Below are positions 33,281-39,559 of a stretch of DNA of 55,252 nt, one piece after another. Position 1 is the first letter of the stretch. Each line of letters starts with the position of its first letter. The stretch comes from Chitinophagales bacterium. Lineage in GTDB: Bacteria > Bacteroidota > Bacteroidia > Chitinophagales > JADIYW01. The notes under the pieces are model-generated. The model made no database searches. It was given only the letters and a program-made list of their open reading frames with translations, and was not told the origin of the DNA. Location: NCBI GenBank assembly GCA_019694955.1, contig JAIBAX010000030.1, positions 1-55,252 of the forward strand, read 5' to 3'. A program made the position numbers and the translations under genes.

Positions 33281-34678
33281 ATGGGAAGGACATTGTTTGA
33301 AAAGGTATGGAATAAACATATCGTTAGGCAGATAGAAGACGGCCCTGTGGTATTGTACATAGACAAACATTTTATTCACGAGGTAACAACGCCACAAGCC
33401 TTTGCAGGATTAGATAAAAAAGGAATTAAGGTCTTTCGACCACAAAATACCGTTGCTACTGCGGATCATAATGTGCCAACAAAAGACCAACACTTACCCA
33501 TTCGAGAGGCGCTCTCCAAACATCAGGTAGATACCCTGATAAAAAACTGTACCAACCATGGATTGGAGCTTTATGGATTAGGGCATCCCTATCAAGGCAT
33601 TGTACATGTCATTGGGCCTGAATTGGGTTTTACGCTTCCAGGAATGACCATTGTTTGCGGCGATAGCCATACCTCCACACATGGCGCTTTCGGTGCTATT
33701 GCCTTCGGTATCGGCACCAGCGAAGTAGAACAGGTATTGGCAACACAGTGTGTATTGCAGATGAAACCTAAAACAATGAGGATTTCCATTGAAGGCGAAT
33801 TGGAGAAAGGCGTTACCGCTAAGGATATCATCTTATATATTATTTCAAAAATTTCTGCCAGTGGTGGAACAGGATATTTTGTAGAATATGCCGGATCGGC
33901 AATCCGTTCTCTTTCTATGGAAGGAAGGATGACCATTTGCAATATGAGTATAGAAATGGGCGCTCGCGGAGGCATTATCGCCCCGGACGAAACTACTTTC
34001 AAGTATATTCAAGGACGCAAATTTGCCCCACAAGGCATCAACTTCGATAAGGCTGTAGCATCCTGGAAGCAATTGGCAACAGATGATGATGCGATTTTTG
34101 ATAAAGAACTACATTTTGACGCTTCTGATATCGAACCCATGGTTACTTTTGGCACCAATCCCGGCATGGGCATAAAAATTTCCCAGAACATCCCCGATGC
34201 TGAACGATTATTAGCGCAAGAGAAAGAAAATTTCCTAAAATCCCTCCAATATATGGGTTTTCAACCCAATGAACCTTTATTGGGAAAGCCCGTTGATTAT
34301 GTGTTTATTGGTAGTTGTACCAATTCCAGAATTGAAGACCTTCGGGCTGTTGCAAATTTGGTGAAAGGAAAAAGAAAAGCAGAAAATGTAACCGTATGGA
34401 TTGTTCCGGGTTCTAAAAAAGTGGAGTTGCAAGCCAGAGAAGAAGGCATTCACACGATTTTGGAGGAAGCGGGTTTTGAATTGCGCGAACCGGGATGCTC
34501 CGCATGTCTCGGTATGAATGAAGATAAGATTCCTACTGGCAAATACTGTATATCCACGTCAAACAGAAATTTCGAAGGTCGGCAGGGGCCTGGTGCTAGG
34601 ACATTACTTGCCAGCCCCATCATGGCTGCAGCTGCGGCATTGACCGGAAAAATTACCGATGTCAGACAATATTTTTAA
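33281..34678 (+). CDS. leuC: 3-isopropylmalate dehydratase large subunit
   Basis: LeuC with LeuD isomerises 2- to 3-isopropylmalate through a [4Fe-4S] cluster. The 465-residue protein contains [14 protein letters not shown] and the three cluster ligands, Cys346 (GSCTNSR), Cys406 and Cys409 ([11 protein letters not shown]). The usual C-terminal [11 protein letters not shown] motif is present. It lies between leuA (1-bp gap) and leuD (4-bp gap), so the three are one operon. The identification is secure. Confidence 0.97.
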
Positions 34679-34682
34679 CATT

Positions 34683-35279
34683 ATGGAGAAGTTCACTACA
34701 ATACAATCTACTGCCGTACCGCTTCAAATCGAAGACATCGACACAGACCAGATTATCCCGGCAAGATTCTTAAAAGCAACCACCAGAGAAGGGTTTGGAG
34801 AAAACCTCTTCCGCGATTGGCGCTATAATGACAACCAAACACCGAAAGCCGACTTTATACTCAATGACACTACATACTCGGGAACCATTCTTGTTGTTGG
34901 AAAGAATTTTGGGTGCGGCTCTAGTCGCGAGCATGCGGCATGGGCTTTGTATGATTACGGTTTTCGGGTGGTCGTCAGCAGTTTTTTTGCAGATATCTTC
35001 AAAAACAACGCCCTCAACAATGGGCTCTTACCATTAGTGGTGAAAGAATCGGTATTAGCCGCCATTTTTACAGCGATAAAAGAAGACCCAAAAACTTTAT
35101 TAATCGTTGATCTTCAACAACAAACAATAGAAGTGCCATCAAAAAATATGGTGGAAACTTTCGAGATAAATTCTTATAAAAAGACGTGCATGCTCAATGG
35201 GTATGAAGACATTGATTATCTATTGAGTCTAAAAGAAGAAATCGCCGCATTTGAGGAACAACATTTAATAACAGGATGA
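34683..35279 (+). CDS. leuD: 3-isopropylmalate dehydratase small subunit
   Basis: The 198-residue swivel-domain partner of LeuC has [14 protein letters not shown] near the N-terminus and [14 protein letters not shown] in the substrate loop, both standard for LeuD. A longer frame from 34659 would overlap the leuC end by 20 bp and add eight residues not expected in LeuD, so the ATG at 34683 is chosen. No leuB follows. Instead the 153-bp inverted-repeat element begins 1 bp after the stop codon. Confidence 0.95.
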
Positions 35280-35280
35280 T

Positions 35281-35433
35281 TTATCACAAAAGTAATTATA
35301 AAATTGTCCATTAATAAAATCCAATTTCCTGTTCTCGTGTCGACACGAGAACACGAGTGGACTACTTTATAAATATCTTGTTATTATAAAGTAGTCGACA
35401 CCTGAACAAGGTATTGGGTTACTTTTGTGATAA
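35281..35433. repeat. MITE-like element with 15-bp terminal inverted repeats and internal palindromes
   Basis: The ends TTATCACAAAAGTAA (35281-35295) and TTACTTTTGTGATAA (35419-35433) are perfect inverted copies. Inside are CCAAT/ATTGG arms (35321-35325 with 35413-35417). A 22-bp perfect palindrome follows (35331-35352, centre GTCGAC). A 13-bp inverted repeat has arms 35360-35372 and 35384-35396. The whole element can fold as one long nested hairpin. It has no open frame. The core is found again, inverted and diverged, at 39378-39447. It may also act as a bidirectional terminator between leuD and the convergent lipase gene. Confidence 0.8.
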
Positions 35434-39086: not shown

Positions 39087-39559
39087 CTAGTTAATAATTC
39101 TACGAAATTAGCTATAAATTTAGAAAAGCTAAAATTATAAAAATGTTGTTATCGTTGTTAAAAACGGTTAAATCGTTAAAAAAGTTTCCTTTTAACAAAC
39201 TTTTAAACATTTTTTTTGTGATTTGTGTATTTAAATGTCTAAAAAGAATGCATTTAGGCAATACTGAAATACTTTGATTTATTGTATCACAACGTTTTTC
39301 AAAGAAAGCACTAAGAACCCTAAGGTGTATATAAGACTATTTCATGGTGGATTTTATCAATGTGCTGTTAAATAATTATAACAAGATAATTTATAAAGTA
39401 CTCCACTCATGTTTTCATGTTGACACGAAAACATGGAATTGATTTATCGTTGCTAATCTTTTACCAATCTAATGTTTACGAATCTAAGTATTTAATTTTA
39501 CGATTTTTTATATTTTATAAAATATTATTAATCAGCATTTTATAAACACAATAAATAAA
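39087..39559. other. Gene-free stretch containing a diverged copy of the inverted-repeat element
   Basis: No frame longer than a few dozen codons is convincing here. The left part is A/T-rich with an 8-bp inverted repeat (AAAAGTTT 39180-39187 and AAACTTTT 39197-39204). The middle holds the repeat core at 39378-39447. The right part is featureless AT-rich sequence up to the flotillin terminator. I see no tRNA-like or known structured RNA. Confidence 0.6.
39378..39447. repeat. Second, inverted and diverged copy of the 35.3-kb repeat core
   Basis: The plus strand here aligns with the minus strand of 35314-35384 over about 70 columns, with six substitutions and a few single-base gaps by eye. The central palindrome persists as a hairpin, with arms 39411-39420 and 39423-39432 extended by CAT/ATG. 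The 15-bp terminal repeats of the first copy are not recognisable, so this is a decayed or partial copy. Confidence 0.75.

Follow-up and report, generated by a model that had tools for sequence, protein, structure and literature searches.

What is the strongly folding unit of 153 bp that directly follows leuD in the window, the whole stretch of 55,252 nucleotides analysed here? As originally predicted, it would be a single MITE-like element bounded by perfect 15-bp terminal inverted repeats (TIRs), with a 22-bp palindrome and a 13-bp inverted repeat inside, able to fold into one long hairpin. On re-reading of the sequence, the perfect inverted ends (35281-35295 and 35419-35433, sequence TTATCACAAAAGTAA) and the 13-bp inner repeat are present, and the RNA fold of the 153 bases is stable far beyond chance (z = -9.4, with none of 200 shuffles equally stable). 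The palindrome, which belongs to the consensus of the family described below, is also perfect but measures 24 bp instead of 22. Similarly, the 153-bp unit does begin 1 bp downstream of the leuD stop (35277-35279), but the true left boundary of the structure lies at 35266, within leuD.

The 153-bp hairpin is a composite, in which a 100-bp MITE (copy A) sits inside an older, shrunken and inverted copy of the same family (copy B, spanning 35269-35430 overall), as detailed in the table. The perfect 15-bp "TIR" is the left end of A paired with the left end of B, the latter found at 35419-35430, whereas the 13-bp repeat consists of both right ends. Excision of A together with one TTA leaves TAATAACAGGATGATTTATAAAGTAGTCGAC, and this junction agrees with the right end of the family at 29 of 31 positions, which indicates that A inserted into the older inverted copy B. 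Since removal of A restores that right end, other copies act as empty sites, so that a filled/empty pair is seen within the genome itself. In this regard, the single 153-bp transposon with perfect 15-bp TIRs drawn in the original prediction is extremely improbable: its inverted ends and folding are genuine, but no other copy in the genome covers positions 1-153, the remaining main matches ending at positions 73-110, and both halves are explained apart, as A and B with their own target-site duplications. What had been taken as one element is a nested pair of elements of about 100 bp with imperfect TIRs of about 27 bp, and such nesting of an asymmetric element can pass for one long element whose inverted ends are perfect.

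Table. Positions of the nested copies and of related features in the window.
Feature	Coordinates	Strand	Remarks
leuD	34659..35279	+	final codons ATA ACA GGA TGA (35268-35279) on copy B except for their first base
Copy B target-site duplication, left	35266..35268		TAA
Copy B (outer, older), right end	35269..35280	-	TAACAGGATGAT; holds last leuD codons and stop
Copy A target-site duplication, left	35281..35283		TTA
Copy A (inner, younger), 100-bp core	35284..35383	+	97% identity to family consensus
Perfect palindrome, 24 bp	35330..35353		TGTTCTCGTGTCGACACGAGAACA; in copy A
13-bp inverted repeat, arm 1	35360..35372		right TIR of copy A
Copy A target-site duplication, right	35384..35386		TTA
13-bp inverted repeat, arm 2	35384..35396		right TIR of copy B
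Copy B, remainder	35387..35430	-	internal deletions (~41 bp gone); finishes with left end TTACTTTTGTGA
Copy B target-site duplication, right	35431..35433		TAA
Second family copy in window	39376..39478	-	decayed, left end lost

The inventory of the family was built from searches of the window's own genome, a draft of 4,135,380 bases in 103 contigs. Searching with the 153 bp returned dozens of family copies but no second match over all 153 bp, the main matches outside the window ending at or before position 110. About 108 dispersed copies were counted, on the basis of a covariance model (R1) with 111 matches, some of which report one element a second time from the other strand, and of nhmmer over the fetched loci, which gave 113 places after merging, with a few short fragments at the end of the list; a scan with the right-end pattern added two more small fragments. 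The automatic structure of R1 was poor, and the model served as a search profile only. A consensus from 30 aligned copies is 107 bp long including both duplications, and the modal length of the copies is likewise 107 bp with both flanking trinucleotides counted. Within this length the core takes up about 100 bp (TCAC...GTTA), and the consensus TIRs (TCACAAAAGTAATTATAAAATAGTCCA and TAACAAGATGATTTATAAAGTAGTCCA) are imperfect over about 27 bp, with some 20 of the 27 positions matching. Identity to the consensus ranges from 64 to 98%, with a median of 85%, a spread that suggests that the family is probably old and went through several bursts.

Several other repeats accompany the family. A subfamily with more symmetrical ends (TCACAAAATGATTTATAGAATAG and TAACAAGATGATTTATAAAG), possibly nearer to the ancestor, occurs at loci L117, L128, L148, L161 and L118. 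At L087, L088, L090, L123 and L084 we find hybrids in which the left half of the MITE is fused to another repeat, CTTAGTGCCTTCTTTGAGAAACTTTGTGATACA. The end of this repeat is similar to the MITE end TCACAAAG, and it may represent a related second family. A different repeat, with GGTGAAGTGGTACCCCGCAG and GGAACACACGCC or close variants, adjoins MITE copies at L070, L091 and L118, and two decayed MITE fragments lie within an array of GACATGCCTTTCAGAACATGTCGAA-type repeats at L163 (G000:C93:16689-16980). Moreover, L082 (G000:C9:13300-26000) holds a direct duplication of about 8.6 kb with genes for malate synthase and isocitrate lyase, where identical MITE copies are spaced 8,621 bp apart.

The flanks of the copies reveal the target. 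Among 67 full-length copies, 23 are bordered by TTA on both sides, 20 by TAA on both sides and only 5 by one of each, a concordance (43:5) with a Fisher p of 3e-8; shuffled data gave identical flanks in 25 copies on average and never in more than 37, against the 43 observed, and no other duplication length rises above chance in these 67 copies. This concordance on both flanks defines a core of about 100 bp and a target-site duplication of 3 bp, TWA. Around one third of the full copies carry no exact duplication, as expected in old copies, although this is no proof. In the hairpin itself, where no target-site duplication had been obvious, they exist for both copies, TTA/TTA around the inner and TAA/TAA around the outer one. 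An assignment to the RUP or IS630 type, with a duplication of 2 bp (TA), was rejected because the unit is 3 bp long and the choice between TTA and TAA agrees across the two flanks.

Non-coding, high-copy DNA in the size range of 50-1000 bp, with TIRs, a target duplication and an empty site within the genome, is a MITE, and the non-autonomous transposon offered among the original alternatives is borne out in this form. With a probability of roughly 0.9, this family of about 108 copies was moved in trans by a DDE-type transposase inserting at TWA, with A nested in B. Such an enzyme would bind the imperfect TIRs, insert at TWA and duplicate the three bases. As the TWA duplication is a signature of PIF/Harbinger elements, an enzyme of that broad type may be proposed, and the pattern points, short of proof, to IS5/PIF-Harbinger-like chemistry; the transposase itself may have been lost or may have escaped the draft assembly. 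TNA duplications occur in some IS5 subgroups. At leuD, the old copy B would have inserted at the 3′ end of the gene, where it would now give the last codons and the stop, and copy A later jumped into the TTA of the right end of B (TTTATAAAG), generating the nested hairpin.

A REP-like nature had been the other suggestion. Spread of REP/REPIN sequences by a RAYT (Y1) transposase would fit a high-copy, intergenic, palindromic family close to the 3′ ends of genes, but this reading is very improbable given that the copies duplicate 3 bp of their target and carry TIRs of about 27 bp instead of short REP hairpins; single-strand Y1 transposition leaves no target duplication.

A transposase gene with matching terminal repeats was sought in the draft genome, by left-end and right-end patterns and by three DDE families, and no autonomous partner was found, nor any IS5-type autonomous element sharing the TIRs of the MITE. 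Three odd left-end matches considered as a possible autonomous element all turned out to belong to the MITE family, with two lying in a duplicated segment. Matches to DDE_Tnp_4 and DDE_Tnp_1_2 are absent from this draft, whose incompleteness could hide an element, and the single match to DDE_Tnp_1, located at the edge of a contig (L182 1-414, G000:C56:1-414) with no MITE end in its neighbourhood, is a fragment that by eye corresponds to the 3′ portion of a transposase of the IS982 type. IS copies may have been collapsed at the contig ends of this assembly.

The position of the hairpin behind a gene raises the question of a role in termination. Gene context, based on simple long open reading frames, is clearly skewed: the 96 intergenic copies flanked by two genes lie in 49 convergent, 39 tandem and 8 divergent gaps, compared with 14, 56 and 29, respectively, among 99 control gaps without copies (p = 4e-8 for the convergent enrichment). 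Many copies also abut stop codons. These observations, along with the strong hairpin, would suit a functional bidirectional terminator or a stabiliser of mRNA 3′ ends kept under selection, its mobility being only historical. However, no canonical intrinsic terminator (a stem-loop followed by a T-run) occurs on either strand within 35266-35433, structure-preserving covariation is slight apart from a single pair exchanged in four copies, and purifying selection on insertions predicts a 3′-end bias as well, so that we regard this function as unlikely. A structured RNA was rejected, since the covariation is weak and Rfam gave no match above the gathering score, only sub-threshold ones. For the MITE family, the 3′-end bias would mainly reflect the removal by selection of insertions that hit genes or promoters. 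On the other hand, the duplication coincides with the TAA stop of a flanking gene in 14 of 67 copies, compared with a rate of 4.8% when non-coding TWA sites are pooled (p = 3e-6), which could evoke a safe-haven transposon whose enzyme prefers gene 3′ ends and TAA stops, the stop being regenerated by the TAA duplication. This preference is improbable, and stop-codon targeting is not claimed, because a control with TWA sites of the same gaps cuts the excess to 10 coincidences versus 6.7 expected (p = 0.05).

At leuD itself, the first base of the ATA codon (35268) belongs to the target duplication of B and the rest of the final codons lies on B. Alignments with LeuD relatives (about 67-74% identical) mostly stop near query residue 199-205, after which short and varied tails follow. 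As these relatives end around residue 199-202 with varied tails, the last residues ITG and the stop are best read, from sequence comparison, as derived from the element, a case of a MITE supplying the terminus of a core biosynthetic gene. The best relatives of LeuC come mostly from Chitinophagaceae and other Bacteroidota, with identities of 77% at most, which makes the Chitinophagales the probable order of the host.

The family is apparently confined to one sampled lineage. It is absent from 12 genomes of the same taxonomic family, by both BLAST and the covariance model, and 383 further genomes of the order hold no full element. Across the 396 genomes of the order, including the own genome and the 12 relatives, three from another family gave weak matches of 27-48 bp, which are not full elements; one of them resembles the terminal part of a coding sequence. 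No match was found among plasmids, phages, viral contigs and named genomes, collections that may omit records near the window. Within the collection of papers searched, none joins MITEs with Chitinophaga-type hosts.

Among known systems, the repeat unit of pneumococcus (RUP) is a close parallel, with 107 bp, 108 intergenic copies, TIRs and a target duplication, although it targets TA and shares its TIRs with IS630-Spn1 (PMC2229807). The family at leuD resembles it in length, copy number, intergenic siting, TIRs and target duplication but differs in its 3-bp TWA duplication, in that no partner IS was found and in that no sequence relation is seen. Correia/NEMIS and ERIC are also short, palindromic, high-copy MITEs with 5′-TA ends (PMC2229807), a likeness in kind; they are listed with TA end motifs instead of a TWA duplication. 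Within the same phylum, the IS5-related MITEs of Porphyromonas gingivalis (MITE239, 464, 700 and BrickBuilt) have TIRs matched to resident IS elements, and the duplications of BrickBuilt vary in length and sequence (PMC4596501); the TIR sequences given for them are different, and the parent IS is present there but was not found here. The 3-bp TWA duplication is shared with PIF/Harbinger elements and Tourist-type MITEs, a eukaryotic superfamily to which the family is likened by target duplication; PIF/Harbinger elements are relatives of bacterial IS5, whose members compared in the same work duplicate ANT (PMC4482050). MITE-derived terminators and elements inserting into each other are known themes according to a recent review (PMC10969869). 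Altogether, as RUP, Correia and ERIC are nearest in kind, the P. gingivalis TIRs differ and the papers searched offer no match, this is a new family, though of a familiar kind of bacterial mobile DNA, and it gives the Bacteroidota a high-copy, well-documented MITE family marked by a sharp TWA duplication.
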